A stretch of DNA of 64,000 bases, taken from contig NZ_JAGYIU010000002.1 of assembly GCF_018402495.1 (NCBI RefSeq), positions 648,984-712,983 on the forward strand, given 5' to 3'. Each line of letters starts with the position of its first letter. The stretch's first letter is position 1. The notes beneath the pieces were generated by a model, which was not told the DNA's origin, searched no databases, and worked only from the letters and a program-made list of their open reading frames with translations. The position numbers and the translations under genes are program-made. The stretch comes from Pseudoalteromonas sp. GTDB lineage: Bacteria > Pseudomonadota > Gammaproteobacteria > Enterobacterales > Alteromonadaceae. This document shows, piece after piece, positions 48,637-63,459 of the stretch.

Positions 48637-48942
48637 ATTTAATCACTTCCTCTGTGCACTCTGTGACCTCTGTGGTAAATAAAATCATTAACCGACGCGG
48701 GGCAAACCCGCTGCTACATGTGCGCGGCGTAAAGCCCCGCCTACAAAATATTTTTTACCACAGAGAGCACCGAGGCGCTGCGCGCTACACAGAGAAGAGC
48801 CACGGGTAACGGGCTGTAAATCCTAGCACCTAGTCACTTCCCTAACACCTAGTCACTTTAATCACTTACTCTGTGACCTCTGTGGTAAATAAAATAACTA
48901 AAAATATAACAACAAGCCGCCCTGCGGCTAACGTGAGCAAGC

Positions 48943-49061
48943 TCTATATTGGAGATGAAATTGGCTATTTACCAAAAGGTATAAGCCAAGTATGGGTTTT
49001 AGAAACAAAAGAGTTAGCAGCTATGCTAACTAGCTTAAAAAATAGGTTCGACTCTGCTTGA
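48943..49061 (+). pseudogene. Four-helix-bundle gene fragment (C-terminal 39 codons)
   Basis: The sequence is identical to the 3' part of the intact gene at 62186-62530 (reading YIGDEIGYLPKGISQVWV to RFDSA and stop) but lacks everything upstream. It is the start of a 345-bp block (48943-49287) repeated at 62412-62756 with about four mismatches. Confidence 0.9.
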
Positions 49062-49206
49062 TTTCTGATTTCTACTATCTGATTTCTAAAACCTGCTCTT
49101 TAACCTTTAACTATTCGCCTTTAACCTTCTTTTTGCACCACAGAGAACAACGAGGCGCTTCGCGCTACACAGAGAAGACAAAATAATTAAAACACGGTGC
49201 TTAACC

Positions 49207-53813: not shown

Positions 53814-53918
53814 GGGGTTCGAGGTTCGGGGTTCGGTGTTCGGGGTTCGGTGTTAGGTGTTAGGTGTTAGGTGTTAGGTGTTAGGTTAAAGGTTGCGGGT
53901 GACGGGCTTCGGGTTGCG
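53814..53918 (+). repeat. Heptamer array, 15 units
   Basis: Fifteen consecutive heptamers, nearly all starting GG: GGGGTTC, GAGGTTC, GGGGTTC, GGTGTTC, GGGGTTC, five GGTGTTA, GGTTAAA, GGTTGCG, GGTGACG, GGCTTCG, GGTTGCG. The 7-bp phase is never broken. Confidence 0.9.
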
Positions 53919-54116: not shown

Positions 54117-54187
54117 TAGACATTAAACCTCGAACATGCGCGAGGTAAACTCCCGCCTACGGTTAAGCACCGTGTTTTAATTGTTTT

Positions 54188-54336
54188 GTAGGCGGGGCTT
54201 TATGCCACGCACTTTACTTAAACATGCGCGAGGTAAACTCCCGCCTACGATTAACCACCGCGTTTTAATTGTTTTGTAGGCGGGGCTTTATGCCGCGCAC
54301 TTTACTTAAACATGCGCGAGGTAAACTCCCGCCTAC
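54188..54336. repeat. Two 61-bp REP pairs (BIME-like), inverted orientation
   Basis: Units at 54188-54248 and 54276-54336 begin GTAGGCGGGGCTTTATGCC and end CTCCCGCCTAC, the reverse complement of the unit at 49207-49267. An ACCACCGCGTTTTAATTG spacer lies between. Confidence 0.85.
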
Positions 54337-54472
54337 GGTTAAGCACCGTGTTTTAATTATTTTGTCTTCTCTGTGTAGTGCGCAGCGCCTCGGTGCACTC
54401 TATGGTGCAAAAAGAAGGTTAAAGGTGAAACTATGCTCAAATATTTTTGAATGGATATAATTTTTGAAAAAA

Positions 54473-54893
54473 TTACTCCCAAGCATCGATTGATTTCATC
54501 AATGCCGAAATCATACGGGAAAGTTCACGAGTCTCCTCAATCCATTCACTGGCCTTTGTCGTATCAACCTCACCTATTTTTAATGCAATGTAAATTTGAG
54601 AGCGTAATTCTCCACAACTCCCCTTAGAATATGATAAAAATCGAGCATAATCTTTAGGTGTTACTCGTTCATAACGTTATTCGATAAGTCCGTTTATCTC
54701 ACCTCTTCGAGGCCGCGCAAGCGCGTTCAAAATTTGCTCCTGCAATTTTGTCTGCTATATTTGAAGAAATTGAAAGTGCAGATCGTGTTATTTGATCTTT
54801 TAAACCAAACTCTTTGCTCTGCTTAAAATGTAAATAAATCTCGCAGGCTAAATCGGCTGAACGTTGCCATACCCTTAAATCTTCAAACCTCAT
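54473..54893 (-). pseudogene. Four-helix-bundle (S23/IVP-like) gene, interrupted
   Basis: The N-terminal part (MRFEDLRVWQRSADLACEIY to ITRSALSISSNIA) ends where the family motif SNIAEG should continue. About 79 bp of foreign, hairpin-rich sequence follows and introduces a TGA stop. The frame then resumes with YERVTPKDYARFLSYSKG through RSQIYIALKIG to DAWE and a TAA at 54473-54475. In gene orientation GGTTCAA heptamers lie upstream and TTTCACC/TTTAACC, the inverted counterpart, lies downstream. Confidence 0.85.
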
Positions 54894-54971
54894 AACATAA
54901 CCAGTCAGCTAAAACATGCTTAACTTATAACTGTAAAATAAGAAAGACACAAAGCTTAGATCAAACTTATA

Positions 54972-55211
54972 GCTTGAACCTTGAGTCTTGAACCTTGAAC
55001 CTTGAACCTTGAACCTTGAGTCTTGAACCTTGAACCTTGAACCTTGAGTCTTGAACCTTGAGTCTTGAACCTTGAACCTTGAACCTTGAGTCTTGAACCT
55101 TGAACCTTGAACCTTGAGTCTTGAACCTTGAACCTTGAACCTTGAACCTTGAACCTTGAACCTTGAACCTTGAGTCTTGAACCTTGAACCTTGAACCTTG
55201 AACCTTGAACC
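54972..55211 (-). repeat. Heptamer array GGTTCAA, about 34 units
   Basis: Written on the minus strand, the array is GGTTCAA repeated, with interspersed GACTCAA variants. It fills the gap between the rpsI terminator and the interrupted four-helix-bundle gene. Confidence 0.92.
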
Positions 55212-55233
55212 AAAATCTTATAGCTACAAAACA

Positions 55234-55259
55234 AAAAACCCAGCATAAGCTGGGTTTTT
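55234..55259 (-). terminator. Terminator after rpsI
   Basis: AAAAACCCAGC/GCTGGGTTTTT with a 4-nt loop. Arrays begin immediately downstream. Confidence 0.85.
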
Positions 55260-55280
55260 GAATTCTTGATAACGTAAAAA

Positions 55281-55670
55281 TTAACGTTTTGAGAATTGTG
55301 GACGCTTACGCGCTTTCTTAAGACCCACTTTCTTACGTTCAACTTTACGTGCATCACGAGTAACGAAACCTGCTTTACGAAGTTGTGGACGTAGTGACTC
55401 GTCAAACTCCATAAGTGCACGAGTGATACCGTGACGGATAGCACCAGCTTGACCAGTAGTACCACCACCAGAAACGGTGATGTGTAAGTCAAACTTCTCT
55501 TTCATGTCAACAAGCTCAAGAGCTTGGTTAACAACCATACGTGCTGTTTCGCGACCAAAGTACTCTTCTAAAGAGCGCTTGTTGATTACGATATTACCAG
55601 TGCCTGGGCGTAAGAATACGCGAGCACTTGAACTTTTACGACGACCTGTACCGTAGTATTGATTTGCCAT
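55281..55670 (-). CDS. rpsI: 30S ribosomal protein S9
   Basis: The 129-residue ribosomal protein starts [20 protein letters not shown] and ends with the conserved [12 protein letters not shown] tail that reaches the P-site tRNA. It is cotranscribed 11 nt after rplM. AAGGAG precedes the start. In many gammaproteobacteria petABC-sspAB follows directly; here the repeat block intervenes. Confidence 0.97.
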
Positions 55671-55681
55671 GATAGTGCTCC

Positions 55682-56110
55682 TTAAATGTCTAGAACCTGA
55701 GGCTGTTGTGCAGCATGGTTGTGCTCAGTACCTGCGTAAACTTTAAGTTTACGGTACATAGCGCGGCCTAAAGGACCACGTGGCAACATGCCTTTTACAG
55801 CTTTCTCGATGATCATTTCAGGCTTTGCAGCTTGAAGTTTATCAAAAGTAGTAGACTTAAGACCACCTGGGAAACCAGAGTGAGCATAGTACACTTTGTC
55901 TTTGAATTTATTACCAGTAACAGTAACTTTTTCAGCGTTGATAACGATGATGTAATCACCAGTATCTACGTGCGGTGTGTACTCAGCTTTATGCTTACCG
56001 CGTAGGCGATGAGCGATTTCAGTAGCGATGCGACCTAAAGTTTTACCTTCAGCGTCAACTACGTACCAGTCACGTTTTACTGTTTCTGGTTTAGCAACAA
56101 ACGTTTTCAT
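55682..56110 (-). CDS. rplM: 50S ribosomal protein L13
   Basis: The 142-residue ribosomal protein has [28 protein letters not shown] at the start and [25 protein letters not shown]. It is the first gene of the rplM-rpsI operon. The gap upstream to the plus-strand four-helix-bundle gene contains the TCAGCGG heptamer array. Confidence 0.97.
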
Positions 56111-56329
56111 TTATAAAAATCCAATGTTTTTCAATTAAAACCACAGGTAGTTATGATTAACTACCGCTCTAAGTATGCTACAACCCCTTCGAGTTTTAGA
56201 CTTTTGCGCCGCTCACAAGTGGCTAAACTATATGAGGGCATAGAACGCAACGTGGCAGACGCGAGAGTATACCAGCACTTAAAACACATTACTACCAGCC
56301 GGTTGTTTTTTCCGCAAGAAAGTTATTAC

Positions 56330-56396
<67 letters not shown>

Positions 56397-56509
56397 AAAA
56401 GCTAATTATAACTTTAGAGTCAACAGAAAATACTTCCTTGCTGAAAATAGATATTTGTAGTTAATAAAATATCAACTAGGATAAAAACTGAGTATAAGGA
56501 TTTGGTATT

Positions 56510-56857
56510 ATGAACTTTGAAAACTTAGAAGTATGGAAGCGCTCAGCCCGCCTTAGCGCTGATATTTACAAAAATACACAACTAATTAAAGACTTTAGCT
56601 TTAGAGATCAATTAACACGCTCTGGTTTATCTGTTCCTAGTAATATAGCTGAGGGCATGACAAGAGAGAGTGATAAAGAAAAAACACGCTTTTTAGATAT
56701 CGCTCGCTCTTCGCTTGCAGAGGCAAGAACCCAAATATATATTGGCATCGATATTAACTATATTGATACCGACATAGGTAAGTCTTGGCTAAATGAAACA
56801 GTCCAGCTGTCAAAAATGCTAACAAGTTTGATAGCAAAAATAAAAACAAGTGAGTAA
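56510..56857 (+). CDS. Four-helix-bundle protein (S23/IVP-like)
   Basis: The 115-residue all-helical protein opens MNFENLEVWKRSARLSADIYK and has the family motif RDQLTRSGLSVPSNIAEG, then ARTQIYIGIDI. The family is named for proteins encoded in intervening sequences of 23S rRNA genes and is structurally related to Avd of diversity-generating retroelements. No reverse transcriptase is near. It is about two-thirds identical to the gene at 62186. TCAGCGG heptamers lie upstream and inverted CAGCTGA units lie downstream. AAGGA precedes the start. Confidence 0.88.
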   Translation: MNFENLEVWKRSARLSADIYKNTQLIKDFSFRDQLTRSGLSVPSNIAEGMTRESDKEKTRFLDIARSSLAEARTQIYIGIDINYIDTDIGKSWLNETVQLSKMLTSLIAKIKTSE

Positions 56858-56866
56858 CCATTCTTA

Positions 56867-56903
56867 CTGACAGCTGAAAACTTACAGCTGACAGCTGACA
56901 GCT
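56867..56903 (+). repeat. Heptamer array CAGCTGA downstream of the four-helix-bundle gene
   Basis: Units CAGCTGA/CAGCTGA with AAACTTA interspersed. Read on the minus strand they are AGCTGTC, one base different from AGCGGTC of the upstream array and inverted to it. The mutM 3' end follows at 56909. Confidence 0.8.
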
Positions 56904-56908
56904 ATTCT

Positions 56909-57718
56909 CTACTTCTGACACACCTCACAAAAAACGGTGCTGCGTTGCCCTAGGCGGATTTCGGTTAATTCGGTATCGCAATTTACACAAGGCAGGCCTT
57001 TTCGGCCATACACTAATAGCTGCTGAGCAAAGTAACCCGGCTTACCATCACTTTGAGCAAAGTCTTTTAACGTAGTGCCACCTTGGGTAATGGCAGCGGC
57101 TAAGGTGTCTTTTATAATTGGGATCAACGCTTGGTAGCGTTTAAGGCTTACTTTACCGGCCTCTTTACGAGGATCAATACCCGCCTTAAATAACGACTCG
57201 TTAGCGTAAATATTACCGACCCCCACCACCACCGCGTTATTCATAATAAACTGCTTAACGGGCACTTTTTTATTGCGAGACTGCTCATAAACACGCTTAG
57301 CAAAAAAATCATCAGTAAGTGGCTCAGGGCCTAATTTAGCAAGTAGCGTATGCTCCTCATTGGGGGCTTGCCATAAACAACAACCAAAGCGGCGTGAATC
57401 GTTTAAACGCAGCGCCTTATTATTAGCAAAAATAAACTCAACATGGTCATGCTTTTTAAGCGGCTCAGTTTTATTAACAACGCGTAAATTACCCGACATC
57501 CCTAAATGTAAAATGGTAGCGCCTAGCTCACAATGCAAAAGTAAATATTTAGCGCGGCGCTCAATACTCGTAACAACTAACCCCTCAAGTTGGTACACCT
57601 CATCTGGCACAGGCCAGCGCATACTGGCATTATAAATATTTACCTTAGTAACAACTTGGTTTAACACATGGGGAGTAATGCCCATACGGCTTACTTCTAC
57701 CTCGGGTAATTCGGGCAT
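56909..57718 (-). CDS. mutM: Formamidopyrimidine-DNA glycosylase
   Basis: The 269-residue base-excision enzyme removes 8-oxoguanine and cleaves the strand. The start MPELPEVE provides the catalytic Pro2 and Glu3. The helix-two-turn-helix has VVGVGNIYANESLFKAGI, and the zinc finger at the C-terminus is CVNC...CEVC. It follows a small membrane-anchored gene by 14 nt. Confidence 0.96.
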   Translation of the reverse strand: MPELPEVEVSRMGITPHVLNQVVTKVNIYNASMRWPVPDEVYQLEGLVVTSIERRAKYLLLHCELGATILHLGMSGNLRVVNKTEPLKKHDHVEFIFANNKALRLNDSRRFGCCLWQAPNEEHTLLAKLGPEPLTDDFFAKRVYEQSRNKKVPVKQFIMNNAVVVGVGNIYANESLFKAGIDPRKEAGKVSLKRYQALIPIIKDTLAAAITQGGTTLKDFAQSDGKPGYFAQQLLVYGRKGLPCVNCDTELTEIRLGQRSTVFCEVCQK

Positions 57719-57732
57719 TTTAAAACGCTCAC

Positions 57733-58233
57733 TTATAAAAAATTAAAACTAGGAAATAATTGCTCAGCCACGGCTAAATCAAGCATAAATACGCGCTGAC
57801 TACTTTTATCGAATAAATAATATTGCCCTTGTACTTTATATAATAAATACACCCAAGCCAAAGGCTCACCAGCAAGTTCGAACGTAGCGGCCGTTAAAGA
57901 TCTATTTAAATCAACAGATTCAGGCAAAGTGGTGGTCATCAACGCGGTATTTTGCCATAAATAGACCAGCTCACTCAGTTGCTGCTCAGTACCTTGCCAA
58001 TAAAGCGGCACTTCATTTTGTAAGGCAGTAGTACGCCAGCTTGTACCTATACGCTCAATTTTTTGGTCGCTAAAAGTAAGCGTTAATACAAAACTTTGCA
58101 CAGGAAGTAGTGGCTGCAATTGCGCCTGCGTTTCATCGTTGCCAATTTTTTTATGCAAACCATTTAAAAAGAAGATCATGATCAACATAGAAAAAATAAT
58201 AACGTTATTCCAACCTTTGCGGCTTAATCGCAT
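57733..58233 (-). CDS. Hypothetical membrane-anchored protein before mutM
   Basis: The 166-residue protein has one N-terminal membrane helix (about 11-24, VIIFSMLIMIFFLNG) and a periplasmic domain with no recognised family. The position immediately before mutM, 14 nt away, suggests cotranscription. GGAA precedes the start. The function is unknown. Confidence 0.7.
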   Translation of the reverse strand: MRLSRKGWNNVIIFSMLIMIFFLNGLHKKIGNDETQAQLQPLLPVQSFVLTLTFSDQKIERIGTSWRTTALQNEVPLYWQGTEQQLSELVYLWQNTALMTTTLPESVDLNRSLTAATFELAGEPLAWVYLLYKVQGQYYLFDKSSQRVFMLDLAVAEQLFPSFNFL

Positions 58234-58350
58234 ATGCAGTTCCTAATTTGTATAAGGTTTTCAAGTTTAGCTAAAACTTAATTGCACTGTCTATATGTTA
58301 AAACCTAAAGACTTTGCTAAAATACCAACAAATTTTAAGGAGTTTAGTCA

Positions 58351-59274
58351 ATGTCAATGTATGTAGTAGGCCATAAAATCCCAGATTCTGATTCAATTTG
58401 CGGTGCAATTGCGCTCGCTTATTTAAAAAATCAAATTGATGAACCAGCAATCCCAACCCGCCTTGGTGAAGTATCGCCAGAAACACAATTTATTTTAGAT
58501 AGATTTGGCTTTGAAGCACCCGAGCTAAAACTAAGCTACGCAGGCGAAGACGTTTATATTGTAGATCACACCGAAAAAACCCAAGCGCCTGACGACATAG
58601 ACCAAGCTCGCGTTGTTGGCGTGGTAGATCACCACAAACTAGGTGATTTAACCTCATCAACACCGCTTGAGTGTTGGATCCGCCCTGTTGGTTGTTCTAA
58701 CACCATTATTAAAATGATGTACGATTTTTACAACGTAGAAATCCCCAAAGATATCGCTGGCATTATGCTTTGCGCTATTTTAAGTGACACCGTTATTTTT
58801 AAATCGCCAACCTGCACCACTGCCGATATAAAATGTGTTGAAGCCCTTGCTGAAATTGCCGGCATTGAAGACTTTAAAGAACTAGGCATGGACATGTTCC
58901 GCGTTAAATCAGCCGTTGAAGACACACCCGTACGTGACTTAGTAATGCGCGACTTTAAAGACTTTAACATGAACGGCAACCTCGTTGGTATAGGCCAATT
59001 AGAAGTTATAGACCTTGCGGTATTTGACGACATAAAAGCCGACCTTGAAGCCGACATTGCCAAACTTAAAGAAGAAGGCGGCCGCCACTCAGTATTTTTA
59101 CTGCTAACCGACATAATGAAAGAAGGCTCACAAATGCTAATTGCATCAGACGACGCAAGCCTAGTTGAGCAAGCCTACGGTGAAAAACCACAAGACGGTA
59201 AAGTATGGCTAAACGGCGTATTAAGCCGCAAAAAACAAGTAGTCCCCCCACTACAAGACGCTTTTAAAAGCTAG
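58351..59274 (+). CDS. ppaC: Manganese-dependent inorganic pyrophosphatase (family II)
   Basis: The 307-residue DHH-family enzyme hydrolyses pyrophosphate. Metal ligands His8, Asp12 and Asp14 (VGHKIPDSD), Asp72 (VDHTE) and the DHH motif at 93-95 are present, as is the C-terminal SRKKQ substrate motif at 292-296. AAGGAG precedes the start. The last G of its TAG stop is the first base of a GGTTCGA heptamer array. Confidence 0.95.
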   Translation: MSMYVVGHKIPDSDSICGAIALAYLKNQIDEPAIPTRLGEVSPETQFILDRFGFEAPELKLSYAGEDVYIVDHTEKTQAPDDIDQARVVGVVDHHKLGDLTSSTPLECWIRPVGCSNTIIKMMYDFYNVEIPKDIAGIMLCAILSDTVIFKSPTCTTADIKCVEALAEIAGIEDFKELGMDMFRVKSAVEDTPVRDLVMRDFKDFNMNGNLVGIGQLEVIDLAVFDDIKADLEADIAKLKEEGGRHSVFLLLTDIMKEGSQMLIASDDASLVEQAYGEKPQDGKVWLNGVLSRKKQVVPPLQDAFKS

Positions 59275-59308
59275 GTTCGAGGTTCGAGGTTCGAGGAGTG
59301 GGCTTCGA
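59274..59308 (+). repeat. Heptamer array GGTTCGA starting in the ppaC stop codon
   Basis: Three GGTTCGA units, then GGAGTGG and GCTTCGA, in phase. The array begins at the G of the ppaC TAG stop and precedes the terminator. Confidence 0.8.
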
Positions 59309-59316
59309 GAAATTTA

Positions 59317-59348
59317 AAAACCTTGCGGTAAACATCGCAAGGTTTTTT
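59317..59348 (+). terminator. Terminator after ppaC
   Basis: The stem AAAACCTTGCG/CGCAAGGTTTT has an 8-nt loop and is followed by more T residues. Confidence 0.85.
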
Positions 59349-59370
59349 TATACCTGTAGCAGCGAGTTCA

Positions 59371-59644
59371 CCTCGCGTCGGTTTTAGATTTAATGTCTAC
59401 CCGCGCCCCGAAGCCCGCAACCCGCAACCCGTAACATAAAGTGCGCGGCATAAAGCCCCGCCTACAACACAATTAAAACGCGGTGCTTAACCGTAGGCGG
59501 GAGTTTACCTCGCGTCGGTTTTAGGTTTAATGTCTACCCGCGCCCCGAAGCCCGCAACCCGTAACATAAAGTGCGCGGCATAAAGCCCCGCCTACAAAAC
59601 AATTAAAACGCGGTGCTTAACCGTAAGCGGGAGTTTACCTCGCG
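59371..59644 (+). repeat. Tandem 137/130-bp REP-heptamer blocks
   Basis: Two consecutive blocks start CCTCGCGTCGG at 59371 and 59508, and a partial third begins at 59638. Each has a CCCGCAA heptamer run, a REP half (GCGCGGCATAAAGCCCCGCC) and GTAGGCGGGAG (GTAAGCGGGAG in the second copy). Block 1 is longer by exactly one CCCGCAA heptamer. Confidence 0.88.
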
Positions 59645-59714
59645 CAGAGTTTAGATATTGTGCAACCCAATTAATTACCTGCTATGTTTATCTATAAAAC
59701 CACAAGATATAAAA

Positions 59715-60167
59715 ATGAAAAAATCACAAAACCTAAGGACGGGTCGTATTTCAATTCCCAATCACTTTTACAGCGTAACCCTAGTTATTAATAACAGACA
59801 AAGGTTATTAAGCGACTTGAGCCTCAACAGAAAAATAATTTATGAAATTAAGCAACTTGAAGAAGAAGGTGCCTGTAAAAGTATTGCTTTTGTCTTCATG
59901 CCAGACCATATACATTGGCTTTTTCAGCTAAAAGTAAGCATGCATTTAAGCGCTTTAATTAGGCTATTTAAAGGCCGTTGCACCAAACTTGCTAGGGAGC
60001 ACTACAAAATTAATAAGCTTTGGCAAAATGATTATTACGATCATATGATACGGGACGAAAAAGATCTAATTAATTATGCGCGCTATATAATTGCAAACCC
60101 GCTTAGAGCTAATATCGTTAATAACGTTGGCGATTACCCATTTTGGGATTGTATTTATTTAAAATGA
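59715..60167 (+). CDS. REP-associated tyrosine transposase (RAYT)
   Basis: The 150-residue single-domain HUH/Y1 transposase has the histidine pair in FVFMPDHIHWLF (His65, His67) and the catalytic-tyrosine region YARYIIANPLRA (Tyr124 or Tyr121). The N-terminal RTGRISIPNHFYSV is typical of RAYTs. GTAG-headed REP palindromes flank the gene on both sides, as expected of a REPtron. The ATG at 59715 is preferred to one at 59658; the ribosome-binding site is weak. Confidence 0.88.
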   Translation: MKKSQNLRTGRISIPNHFYSVTLVINNRQRLLSDLSLNRKIIYEIKQLEEEGACKSIAFVFMPDHIHWLFQLKVSMHLSALIRLFKGRCTKLAREHYKINKLWQNDYYDHMIRDEKDLINYARYIIANPLRANIVNNVGDYPFWDCIYLK

Positions 60168-60181
60168 AATATAAAAACCTT

Positions 60182-60330
60182 GTAGGCGGGAGTTTACCTC
60201 GCGCATGTTTAAATAAAGTGCGCGGCATAAAGCCCCGCCTACAAAACAATTAAAACGCGGTGCTTAACCGTAGGCGGGAGTTTACCTCGCGCATGTTTAA
60301 GTAAAGTGCGCGGCATAAAGCCCCGCCTAC
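60182..60330. repeat. Two 61-bp REP pairs downstream of the RAYT gene
   Basis: Full units at 60182-60242 and 60270-60330. They share the head GTAGGCGGGAG and tail CCCCGCCTAC with the units at 49207 and 62676, separated by ACAATTAAAACGCGGTGC. Confidence 0.9.
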
Positions 60331-60361
60331 AACACAATTAAAACGCGGTGGTTAACCGCGT

Positions 60362-60424
60362 CTCGTCGCCCGTAACCCGTCACCCGTCACCCGTAACCCG
60401 TGGCCCGTGGCCCGCAGGCCGCCG
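60362..60424 (+). repeat. Heptamer array CCCGTAA/CCCGTCA/CCCGTGG
   Basis: Nine heptamers from CTCGTCG to GCCGCCG, with CCCGT core. It ends 26 bp before the start of the MBL-fold gene and reads open in one frame, which gives a spurious N-terminal extension of that gene. Confidence 0.85.
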
Positions 60425-60450
60425 ACAAAACAACAAATAAGGAGCACACA

Positions 60451-61839
60451 ATGAACATACTTCACCACGGAGCGGTTAATGGCGTAACAGGCTCGTGCCA
60501 CCAGCTGGTTATAAACAACCACTCATCAATACTTATAGATTGTGGGTTATTTCAAGGCGAAGACAGCAAAGCCGACCTATCAATCGAATTTAATATAAAC
60601 ACCATAAACGCATTAATAGTGACCCATTGCCATATTGATCACGTAGGCCGCATTCCTTACCTACTTATGGCAGGATTTAAAGGGCCCATATTTACCTCAG
60701 TGGCATCGGCCAGCTTACTGCCACTCGTTATTGAAGACGCATTAAAAGTAGGCGTTACCCGCGATCAAAAAATAATAAATGCCTGCTTAAAATTACTTAA
60801 ACAGCAAGTTGTAGCGGTTGATTTTAAAACCTGGTTTGAGCTGCCCTGCAACGGCGAACATACAGCCAAAGCGCGATTACAACGAGCAGGGCATATTTTA
60901 GGCTCAGCCTATGTAGAAATAGACATAATCCCAGCAGTGCATAAAACCAAAAACAGCCACCGCGTAGTGTTTTCTGGCGATTTAGGCGCGCCTTACACAC
61001 CTTTATTACCCGCCCCCAAAGCCCCCTACAAAGCCGATACCTTAGTGATAGAATCAACCTATGGTGATAAAAACCACCAAGGCCGTAAGCAACGCACGCA
61101 AACATTAAAAGCCGTGATTGAACGCGCCGTAGCCGATAACGGCGTAGTGCTTGTACCCGCGTTTAGCATAGGGCGCACGCAAGAGCTGTTATACGAGCTT
61201 GAACAGCTTATTCATGCATCAGCCAAACACTCACCGTGGCGCACAATAAACGTAATACTCGACTCACCCATGGCCGCAAACTTTACCCAGCAGTACCGCA
61301 AGTTTAAATATTTATGGGATGAAGAAGCCAAACAAAAAGTAGCCAAAGGCCGCCACCCGCTCGACTTTGAAAACCTGACCACCATAAACACCCACAGCGA
61401 GCACTTAGCAATAATAAATTACTTATCCACCCGACAAACACCCGCCATTATTTTAGCTGCAAGCGGTATGTGCAGCGGTGGGCGAATTGTTAACTACCTA
61501 GAACGCTTTTTAACCGACAAAACCACCGACGTACTCTTTGTAGGTTACCAAGGGCGCGGCACCCTAGGGCGCGATATACAAAAATACGGCCCACGTAACG
61601 GCTATGTATTTATAAATAATACGCGCATTAATATAAACGCCCAAATACACACCATAAGCGGCTACAGCGCCCACGCCGATCAAACCGGGTTAATTAAATT
61701 TGTAACCGGCATGCGTAAAAAACCCAGCCACATAAAAATAGTCCACGGCGACAACGACGCCAAAAACGCACTCGCAGCAAAATACAAAGAAATATTAGGA
61801 AACGATGTAAATGTTGAAATTGGAAAGGGTAAAGAATAG
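60451..61839 (+). CDS. MBL-fold RNA-processing nuclease (beta-CASP family)
   Basis: The 462-residue protein is a metallo-beta-lactamase fold hydrolase with an RNA-metabolising (beta-CASP) domain. The zinc motif is THCHIDH (His59, His61, Asp63, His64), then AGHILGSAYVEI and FSGDLG, the beta-CASP segment VLVPAFSIGRTQELLYEL and C-terminal YSAHADQ and VHGD. It resembles predicted exonucleases of the YsgA/CPSF type; RNA is the likely substrate. AAGGAG precedes the ATG at 60451. It lies between the RAYT and a four-helix-bundle gene. Confidence 0.88.
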   Translation: MNILHHGAVNGVTGSCHQLVINNHSSILIDCGLFQGEDSKADLSIEFNINTINALIVTHCHIDHVGRIPYLLMAGFKGPIFTSVASASLLPLVIEDALKVGVTRDQKIINACLKLLKQQVVAVDFKTWFELPCNGEHTAKARLQRAGHILGSAYVEIDIIPAVHKTKNSHRVVFSGDLGAPYTPLLPAPKAPYKADTLVIESTYGDKNHQGRKQRTQTLKAVIERAVADNGVVLVPAFSIGRTQELLYELEQLIHASAKHSPWRTINVILDSPMAANFTQQYRKFKYLWDEEAKQKVAKGRHPLDFENLTTINTHSEHLAIINYLSTRQTPAIILAASGMCSGGRIVNYLERFLTDKTTDVLFVGYQGRGTLGRDIQKYGPRNGYVFINNTRININAQIHTISGYSAHADQTGLIKFVTGMRKKPSHIKIVHGDNDAKNALAAKYKEILGNDVNVEIGKGKE

Positions 61840-61842
61840 AAG

Positions 61843-62160
61843 AAATTAGAAATTAGAAGTTAAAAGTTAAAAGTTAGAAGTTAGAAATTAGAAATCAGAA
61901 ATCAGAAGTTAGAAGTTAGAAGTCAGAAGTCAGAAGTCAGAAGTCAGAAGTCAGATATTAGAAATTAGAAATTAGAAATTAGAAATTAGAAATTAGAAAT
62001 TAGAAATTAGAAATTAGAAATTAGAAGTCAGAAGTCAGAAGTCAGAAGTTAGAAGTTAGAAGTTAGAAGTTAGAAGTTAGAAGTTAGAAGTTAGAAGTTA
62101 GAAGTTAGAAGTTAGAAATTAGAAGTTAGAAATTAGAAGTTAGAAGTCAGATATCAGAAG
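61843..62160 (+). repeat. Heptamer array GAAGTTA/GAAATTA/GAAGTCA, about 45 units
   Basis: About 318 bp of contiguous heptamers of the form GAARTYA (GAAATTA, GAAGTTA, GAAATCA, GAAGTCA, rare AAAGTTA, GATATTA and GATATCA). It ends 25 bp upstream of the four-helix-bundle start. Confidence 0.93.
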
Positions 62161-62185
62161 TCTTATTTTAATCTAGGAGATCGTA

Positions 62186-62530
62186 ATGAACTTTGAGCAT
62201 TTAGATGTATGGAAAAGATCTGTAAAACTCAGTTGTGAAATTTATAAATCTACCGCTAATTTAAAAGATTATGGGTTTAGAGATCAGTTAACTCGGTCTG
62301 CGCTATCGGTTCCCAGCAATATAGCTGAGGGGGTTTGCAGAGAAAGCTTTAAAGAAAAAAGCCGCTTTATTGATATTGCACGCGCCTCACTAGGTGAAGC
62401 GCGCACCCAAATCTATATTGGAGATGAAATTGGCTATTTACCAAAAGGTATAAGCCAAGTATGGGTTTTAGAAACAAAAGAGTTAGCAGCTATGCTAACT
62501 AGCTTAAAAAATAGGTTCGACTCTGCTTGA
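62186..62530 (+). CDS. Four-helix-bundle protein (S23/IVP-like)
   Basis: The 114-residue protein opens MNFEHLDVWKRSVKLSCEIYK and has RDQLTRSALSVPSNIAEGVCRES and ARTQIYIGDEIG. It is intact, with AGGAG before the start. GAAATCA-type heptamers are just upstream, and inverted TGATTTC units begin in its own TGA stop codon (62528-62534) and continue downstream. The 3' end is duplicated at 48943-49061, and short tails recur at 49464 and four times at 62971-63411. Confidence 0.9.
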   Translation: MNFEHLDVWKRSVKLSCEIYKSTANLKDYGFRDQLTRSALSVPSNIAEGVCRESFKEKSRFIDIARASLGEARTQIYIGDEIGYLPKGISQVWVLETKELAAMLTSLKNRFDSA

Positions 62531-62562
62531 TTTCTGATTTCTGCTATCTGATTTCTAAAACC
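62528..62562 (+). repeat. Heptamer array TGATTTC starting in the stop codon
   Basis: TGATTTC, TGATTTC, TGCTATC, TGATTTC, TAAAACC in phase. These are the reverse complement of the GAAATCA/GATAGCA type found upstream of the same gene. Confidence 0.88.
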
Positions 62563-62675
62563 TGCTCTTTAACCTTTAACTATTCGCCTTTAACCTTCTT
62601 TTTGCACCACAGAGAACACCGAGGCGCTTCGCGCTACACAGAGAAAACAAAACAATTAAAACACGGTGCTTAACC

Positions 62676-62824
62676 GTAGGCGGGAGTTTACCTCGCGCAT
62701 GTTTAAGTAAAGTGCGCGGCATAAAGCCCCGCCTACAAAACAATTAAAACACGGTGCTTAACCGTAGGCGGGAGTTTACCTCGCGCATGTTTAAGTAAAG
62801 TGCGCGGCATAAAGCCCCGCCTAC
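62676..62824. repeat. Two 61-bp REP pairs
   Basis: Full units at 62676-62736 and 62764-62824, in the same orientation as those at 49207 and 60182. Confidence 0.9.
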
Positions 62825-62849
62825 AAAATAATTAAAACGCGGTGGTTTC

Positions 62850-62919: not shown

Positions 62920-62970
62920 ATTTAATCACTTCCTCTGTGCACTCTGTGACCTCTGTGGTAAATAAAATAA

Positions 62971-63459
62971 CTTAAAAAATAGGTTCGACTCTGCTTGATT
63001 TCTGATTTCTACTATCTGATTTCTAAAACCTGCTCTTTAACCTTCACCCTTTAACCTTTATATTTAATCACTTCCTCTGTGACCTCTGTGGTAAATAAAA
63101 TAGCTTAAAAAATAGGTTCGACTCTGCTTGATTTCTGATTTCTGCTATCTGATTTCTAAAACCTGCTCTTTTACCTTCACCCTTTAACCTTTATATTTAA
63201 TCACTTCCTCTGTGCACTCTGTGACCTCTGTGGTAAATAAAATAACTTAAAAAATAGGTTCGACTCTGCTTGATTTCTGATTTCTACTATCTGATTTCTA
63301 AAACCTGCTCTTTCACCCTTAACCTTTCACCTTTAACCTTTATATTTAATCACTTACTCTGTGACCTCTGTGGTAAATAAAATAACTTAAAAAATAGGTT
63401 CGACTCTGCTTGATTTCTGATTTCTACTATCTGATTTCTAAAACCTGCTCTTTCCCCTT
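62971..63459 (+). repeat. Tandem 133-142-bp repeats with four-helix-bundle tail
   Basis: Four copies start CTTAAAAAATAGGTTCGACT at 62971, 63104, 63246 and 63386. Each begins with the last codons and stop of the four-helix-bundle gene, then TGATTTC heptamers, CCTTTAA heptamers and CTCTGTGNN nonamers. Lengths of 133, 142 and 140 bp differ by one 9-bp unit and one 7-bp unit. Confidence 0.9.

Follow-up and report, generated by a model that had tools for sequence, protein, structure and literature searches.

The intervening sequences (IVSs) of 23S rRNA in Coxiella and Leptospira carry a gene of the S23 family (PF05635, 23S-IVP) between terminal inverted repeats. In the Coxiella IVS, the S23 open reading frame (ORF) is preceded by the heptamer GACAGAT in two to three tandem copies, and a 28-bp terminal stem is cut by RNase III; the available text of this description mentions neither a matching downstream array nor copies outside rRNA (PMC4990558). 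Heptameric repeats near stop codons, GGGAATC in Xanthomonas and GGGGA(C/T)T in Nostoc, were reported by Rehm 2015, with 70 and 75 inverted heptamer pairs in two xanthomonads; that study followed a single unit type in each genome, and its accessible part contains neither the term S23 nor the term four helix and makes no link to S23 genes (PMC4692102). TAACTGA heptamers are found in Beggiatoaceae, cyanobacteria and Bacteroidetes (PMC4679880, partial text). Here we analyze a window of 64,000 nucleotides (positions 648,984 to 712,983 of contig NZ_JAGYIU010000002.1, assembly GCF_018402495.1) from a 3.85-Mb Pseudoalteromonas genome, in which S23 genes lie between arrays of inverted heptamers, and show that matched inverted heptamers often bound PF05635 genes of many phyla. 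In contrast to the Coxiella and Leptospira IVSs, the copies of the window are located outside 23S rRNA, as is every fetched copy searched for 23S except one (L190), and the unit of their arms varies by lineage and site.

The genome contains only three PF05635 genes, all within one 8-kb stretch, plus a C-terminal fragment at 48924-49034; a PF05635 match is present in 38 of 108 Pseudoalteromonas genomes. The three copies sit between protein-coding ORFs, and their features are as follows.

54417-54430, minus strand: two heptamers, GGTTAAA GGTGAAA on the plus strand, that form the downstream arm of the broken S23 copy (sequence read)
54473-54893, minus strand: broken S23 (PF05635) gene, with profile positions 1-50 at 54744-54893 and 50-105 at 54506-54673
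54672-54748, minus strand: structured insert of about 75 bp at the NIA/EG codons (NIA|EG) of the broken gene, limits approximate
54973-55211, minus strand: upstream arm of the broken copy, with the unit GGTTCAA (gene strand) repeated about 34 times
56330-56396, plus strand: upstream arm of the second copy, (TCAGCGG)9.6
56510-56857, plus strand: intact S23/IVP four-helix-bundle gene, 115 aa (PF05635 E 2.7e-32)
56867-56903, plus strand: downstream arm of the second copy, CTGACAG/ACAGCTG units, reverse complement TCAGCTG
61841-62158, plus strand: upstream arm of the third copy, a mixture of AGAAGTT, AGAAATT, AGAAGTC and AGAAATC that begins 1 bp past the stop codon of the preceding gene
62186-62530, plus strand: intact S23/IVP four-helix-bundle gene, 114 aa (PF05635 E 2.3e-29)
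62528-62556, plus strand: downstream arm of the third copy, TGATTTC-type units that start within the stop codon of the gene

The intact genes score 111.6 and 102.2 bits against the PF05635 profile (cut-off 33.8), and the N-terminal part of the broken copy scores 50.9. A sequence-only reading of the window had placed arrays on both sides of all three copies. This stands for the two intact copies; the downstream arm of the 54473-54893 copy is weak, since it has two units only. At both intact copies the arms are inverted, as had been claimed: around the 56510 gene, upstream TCAGCGG and the reverse complement of the downstream unit, TCAGCTG, agree in 6/7 letters, and at 62186 the reverse complement of the downstream unit, GAAATCA, occurs in the upstream arm as a minority unit. 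The terminal inverted repeats thus exist in the form of locus-matched heptamer arrays. Period-7 segments scoring at least 12 number 12 in the window, all at 49.3-63.4 kb, against 0.0 in block shuffles of the window. As judged from ORFs and a profile search, S23 is the sole gene between the arms, so that the window copies resemble DNA transposons in their terminal inverted repeats (here tandem heptamers) but have no transposase between them. Other Pseudoalteromonas copies carry units such as GTCAGCC/ATCAGCT, GGTTCAA/GGTTAAA, and TGGTTAG/TGGTTAG (upstream unit/reverse complement of the downstream one), and some copies in this genus have no array on one or both sides.

The generality of this arrangement was assessed on a main sample of 125 distinct copies outside Pseudoalteromonas, combining a phylum-wide draw with the best 80 of 564 relatives among named genomes, from which 7 Pseudoalteromonas loci, duplicate genes, and copies with profile scores below 60 were removed; the sample leans towards relatives of the query because part of it consists of the 80 best loci of the scan. 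For the counts by period and the gene controls, copies with flanks shorter than 200 bp were left out and duplicates kept. Period-7 arrays (score at least 10, within 300 bp) were found upstream of 41, downstream of 62 and on both sides of 25 of 117 S23 copies, as compared with 7, 8 and 1, respectively, of 102 control ORFs of the same loci. At the S23 copies, periods 4-6 and 9-11 are almost lacking and period 8 gives a few cases (4, 8 and 3); a slight enrichment of period 8 is seen in general, in both the main and the Bacteroidota samples. In the 40 loci with both arms called (score at least 8; unit comparisons are confined to loci with called arrays), upstream and downstream units are exact reverse complements in 18 and at most one letter away from this in 27, whereas random pairing gives 1.1% identical units, the direct orientation gives none, and 0 of 5000 permutations were as good.

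A stricter statistic that depends little on thresholds, and asks whether one heptamer occurs in tandem on each side in inverted orientation, led to the same result. Flank matching no better than random pairing had been named beforehand as the outcome that would speak against the idea; outside Pseudoalteromonas, 39/119 loci match, compared to 0.98 expected from cross-locus pairing and 7 in direct orientation. The matched loci include records named Verrucomicrobia, Clostridia, Caldiserica, Nitrospirae, Bacteroidota, and several proteobacterial groups. In a Bacteroidota sample (the 29 best-scoring loci and 40 hand-picked among the matches listed, one per genome), 11/69 loci match (0.46 expected; direct 2, with 0.04 expected). 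In a gammaproteobacterial sample, made of the best loci of one search without the already sampled L499, L519 and L520, the flanks were long enough for the strict test in 22 of 26 copies, of which 16 match (0.71 expected; direct 1, with 0.24 expected). Matching of left and right units within a locus and their difference between loci, first noted for the three window copies, therefore lies far above cross-locus pairs over many genomes. S23 matches were also found in 21 of 72,556 plasmid records, of which four, from Nostoc and Riemerella, were read; two of these four loci have identical units on both sides. No S23 match was found in 50,697 phage records, and no Xanthomonas copy was seen in a search of 369 genomes with the XCC0516 stretch (best identity 64%).

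These controls also bear on a different explanation, in which slippage at stop codons makes heptamer arrays in certain gaps whatever the gene, and S23 genes are passengers. Solo arrays are present in the window (53816-53886, 59273-59296 and 60369-60414) and, without S23 genes, at the 3' end of the gene preceding the third copy (60400-61839); the 7-8 of 102 control ORFs with an array nearby, as well as the inverted heptamer pairs and near-stop repeats that according to the available text are common in Xanthomonas (PMC4692102), are in line with this. Heptamers are rarer beside unrelated genes, as the sequence-only reading required, but not exclusive to S23. Arrays on both sides, in 1/102 control ORFs versus 25/117 S23 copies, are hard to reconcile with passengers, and we regard such array-prone gaps as an improbable account of the whole.

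On the sense strand the upstream units are G-rich and C-poor, and AG is enriched in them (33/39 versus 23.8 in letter-shuffled units, with 0 of 300 shuffles as high). In-unit stop codons were considered as a cause of the heptamer length and rejected, since they are not enriched in upstream sense units (21/39 versus 18.5 letter-shuffled). Stop codons do exceed the shuffled numbers on the opposite strand of the upstream units (19 versus 9.4), as well as in downstream units read in sense (21/58 versus 12.9).

The unit is inherited with the S23 lineage. Units are identical in 94% of pairs at 90-99% protein identity, 32% at 80-89%, 15% at 70-79%, and 0-2% below 70%. At 80-89% protein identity, they are identical in 91% of 108 same-site pairs as opposed to 17% of 52 different-site pairs; pairs here and in the narrower comparisons below are not independent. 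Within Pseudoalteromonas alone, at 75-85% protein identity, the figures are 13/17 for the same site and about 9/67 for different sites, so that a difference of site is accompanied by one or two changed letters rather than by a wholly new unit. Contrary cases are four same-site Pseudoalteromonas pairs at 85-89% protein identity, only one of which has identical units, and pairs from a second genus, g78, at 75-80%, where no difference is seen (3/5 versus 3/6). In place, the unit is stable over a synonymous divergence (dS) of about 0.9; it is probably altered when the element sits elsewhere. The earlier suggestion that the repeats are re-made at each site is thus retained in a reduced form: another site brings one or two changed letters, while the unit as a whole follows the S23 lineage.

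Empty sites in relatives, which had been proposed as a check, show mobile-like presence and absence at two orthologous gaps. (The names nuoC, nuoD, acdA, mmsB, rplM, and mutM are our assumption from the translations and neighbours rather than taken from annotation.) In g78, possibly Mesorhizobium, with genomes mostly of 6-8 Mb, the acdA-mmsB gap was read in 72 of 99 genomes searched. It is empty in 41 and holds S23 between AGTAGGC-type arms in 20, one of these being interrupted by N and one having barely more than one unit downstream; four sites contain gene-less inverted arrays (one AGTAGTG, three TGGTGAA), and the remainder are two internally deleted derivatives, one octamer form, three with an unrelated palindrome, and one other. 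The octamer version of the arrays was seen in L266 (GCAGTAGG), and the palindromic element in L257, L261, and L270, three genomes. Among 30 nuoC-nuoD loci read of 60 matched genomes, 21 are empty, with 2-15 bp separating the nuoD start from the aligned end of nuoC, six are filled, two have other sequence, and one is cut by a contig end. The filled copies encode S23 proteins of different lineages with AGTAGTG, TAGCGAA, or GAATGGT units. As to the origin of such units, copying from the target was considered, since TGAATGG at nuoC-nuoD equals the stop plus start of the empty allele L340, but was rejected because the filled right flank resembles another empty allele.

The filled acdA-mmsB and nuoC-nuoD gaps have the order array-gene-array between a stop codon, at which the array starts, and the next start, with both junction reading frames intact. 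Across phyla, the array starts at most 12 bp from the upstream stop codon in 20/33, 6/8, and 9/13 loci with a called array and a same-strand upstream ORF. Both neighbours share the S23 orientation in 85 of 109 cases and are both opposite in 5; for control ORFs the numbers are 51 and 12 of 84. In Pseudoalteromonas, the 3' end of the 60400-61839 gene is a favoured place: of 30 loci, the window included, nine have S23 nearby, with several lineages and either orientation represented, and heptamer arrays are present in 12, built from a wide range of units. The stop-to-array distance there, usable only for L376, L377, L378, L394, and L401, is 0-9 bp. Finally, the rplM-mutM neighbourhood, the site of the 56510 copy, occurs in five of 30 loci read (the window's own among them), three of them holding the gene, with arrays that vary greatly in length, and two only N-terminal remnants.

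A single S23 copy, L190, is contained in a full 23S rRNA match, the sole such case among the fetched loci searched for 23S; a second copy with a score equal to it in the phylum-wide draw is outside the fetched set. The arms of L190, GGATTCA GGAATCA GAGTTCA GGAATTA GGTATCA and CTGATCC CTGATCC CTGACCT CTGATTC, are inverted heptamer arrays in degenerate form. Two further S23 copies of this genome lie outside rRNA; L092 has clear arrays, and L189 is degenerate. Given the L190 arms and the Coxiella paper, that is, one copy here and one publication, the 23S IVSs appear to be the form that this element takes when resident in rRNA.

An alternative is that the arms act in RNA. They could pair in the transcript, joining the neighbours, with RNase III cutting the helix, and selection on the stem rather than DNA mobility would keep them complementary. 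The sense, co-directional placement, the RNase III-cut terminal stem described in the accessible text for Coxiella (PMC4990558), and the predicted duplex of L190 (-106.1 sense versus -72.5 antisense), together with L112 and L172, which also strongly favour sense, agree with such a mechanism. A conserved RNA stem should favour G-U compatible changes between the arms, but the differences show no such bias (10 wobble-compatible versus 11 incompatible), and among 27 structured loci (150-bp flanks, neighbouring sequence included) the sense duplex is stronger in 9 and the antisense duplex in 18. By these two tests there is in general no sign of RNase III-type excision, so the RNA route is unproven outside rRNA, and we consider it unlikely as the general explanation.

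The protein itself is kept by selection, as the patchily present gene has a median ratio of nonsynonymous to synonymous divergence of 0.05-0.08 at five g78 sites, sites without arrays included. The AlphaFold2 (AF2) model of the 115-aa protein (mean predicted local distance difference test score, pLDDT, 97.4) matches 2gsc (XCC0516) with a template modelling (TM) score of 0.90 and 2rld (BT_0352) with 0.82. It also resembles 4dwl, the Avd protein of a phage diversity-generating retroelement (TM 0.79), albeit at only 16% identity and a Foldseek E of 0.009. The S23/Avd-like four-helix-bundle fold proposed from the letters is therefore borne out by the model and the structure search. Avd is a pentamer. 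XCC0516 is described as a homopentamer (PMC4990558, partial text). We infer that the S23 protein binds its own heptamers. A rival reading is autoregulation, in which the arrays in the 5' and 3' untranslated regions of the gene would be operators bound by the pentamer instead of element ends; units that co-vary with the protein lineage, strong conservation of the protein, and the likeness of its fold to Avd, part of a retroelement ribonucleoprotein (8ube and others), would fit. Operators would account neither for the gene-less inverted arrays in the same acdA-mmsB gap nor for filled versus empty gaps, and the arms are inverted rather than direct, so we think little of this possibility.

We therefore prefer, with a probability of roughly 0.6, to regard these loci as small mobile (selfish) elements, each with one S23 gene between inverted, lineage-specific heptamer arrays that are the ends of the element. 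This draws on the inverted matching in three samples with its period and gene controls, the two matched plasmid loci, the filled and empty gaps, the reading frames kept at the junctions, the array starts near upstream stop codons, the mostly shared orientation of gene and neighbours, the low nonsynonymous divergence of a patchily present gene, the differing S23 lineages in one gap, the gene-less arrays, and the 23S copy. Several results weigh against it. The strict match fails in 80/119, 58/69, and 6/22 loci of the three samples. Arrays are scarce in Bacteroidota (upstream 11, downstream 14, of 71), where the array-based test comprises 7 pairs (1/5000 permutations as good), or 4 pairs (189/5000) when the threshold is raised. 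Two g78 sites, with 20 of 57 copies, have no arrays, and the RNA-pairing test, by wobble and by strand energy, was negative overall. No consistent target-site duplication was found at the nuoC-nuoD and acdA-mmsB junctions read by eye, and no movement of the S23 element was seen in the genomes compared. The filled acdA-mmsB alleles share a ribosome-binding region unlike that of the empty alleles, at a dS of about 0.9; exchange of old alleles is therefore likely at this gap, and recombination of this kind could explain the patchiness there. Simple repeated gain and loss at acdA-mmsB, with at least 14 changes of the S23 label on the flank tree, was rejected for the same reason.

If the S23 loci are mobile elements, they would lodge in transcribed gaps, because an insertion between a stop codon and the next start, or into an RNA helix cut by RNase III, would do little harm. 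A putative pentameric protein could recognize its own heptamers in DNA or RNA. Slippage inside an arm would keep units alike and alter the array length. On moving, one arm or a few units might found the new ends, the second arm being copied from the first, so that both arms would change together. The enzyme for strand transfer or reverse transcription would have to come from the host or another element, since the unit encodes none. In a wider and more tentative form, which we consider less likely than not, these loci may constitute a hitherto unrecognized, phylum-spanning class of mobile elements whose ends are short tandem units, a slightly different heptamer being re-founded at each site and copied into both arms, with an Avd-like pentamer as the sole protein and with the 23S IVSs and scattered inverted heptamer pairs as its rRNA-resident and gene-less forms. 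Miniature inverted-repeat transposable elements (MITEs), repetitive extragenic palindromic (REP) sequences and bacterial interspersed mosaic elements (BIMEs) are likewise gene-less inverted-repeat forms in intergenic gaps, but their inverted repeats have a fixed sequence, whereas those considered here are heptamer arrays.

Further features of the window are related to the third copy or to heptamers without an adjoining S23 gene.

48924-49087, plus strand: copy of the 62186 gene truncated at its 5' end (profile positions 70-106 present), together with the TGATTTC arm
49471, plus strand: further 3'-end copy of the 62186 gene (sequence read)
59273-59296, plus strand: solo array (AGGTTCG)3.4 across the stop codon of the 58351-59274 gene, with no adjoining S23 gene
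62942-63453, plus strand: tandem units of 133-142 bp, each the 3' end of the 62186 gene plus the downstream arm, with end copies at 62978, 63111, 63253, and 63393

The truncated copies of the 62186 gene, two of them 13 kb away and four in tandem, retain the 3' end and the downstream arm. A Y1 transposase gene (PF01797, similar to REP-associated tyrosine transposases, RAYT) is located at 59658-60167 amid repeats of 88-130 bp (54133-54365, 59364-59644, 60182-60358, and 62647-62844); the gene and these repeats are both distinct from the S23 arms.

In the broken window copy, an insert of about 75 bp with four short hairpins parts profile positions 1-50 from 50-105. The same insert occurs at the conserved NIA/EG codons of S23 genes of different lineages, in 7 copies from 5 genomes (window 54672-54748, minus strand; L041, L042, L043, L045, L046, and L047); across 107 genomes, each of the 7 strong matches falls within an S23 gene, and there is one additional weak match of 26 bases. 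It resembles the Rfam family AaHKsRNA22 (31.9 bits, below the gathering threshold of 39.8) and may represent a very small homing element of S23 genes. An insert of about 70 bp with a similar layout, a few codons off in the same motif, is present in L195, L196, and L198 (genus g59 of the proteobacterial family f30) and has no Rfam match up to E 1. In addition, N-terminal S23 pieces of 22 residues are repeated upstream of another S23 gene in L064 (10553-10909), L069 (4452-4517), and L037 (3272-3337); in L061, a relative, the first S23 gene at the L064 site is full-length.

The S23 ORF, IVSs with inverted ends, one case of upstream heptamers, and near-stop heptamers with inverted pairs are already known. 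In the open-licence PMC literature, we found no description of S23 genes in general as bounded by matched inverted heptamers, or of intervening sequences as a special case of such elements, and heptamers were joined to S23 only in PMC4990558; the whole picture is real and general, and undescribed within the literature searched. If true, it would unite three unexplained things, the S23 intervening sequences of 23S rRNA, the S23 genes between protein genes across bacteria, and the long-known intergenic heptamer repeats of bacteria. It would turn the target of the S23/Avd-like protein into a concrete question, its own heptamer, and the natural empty and filled alleles would provide a system for studying a transposase-less element with changing ends.

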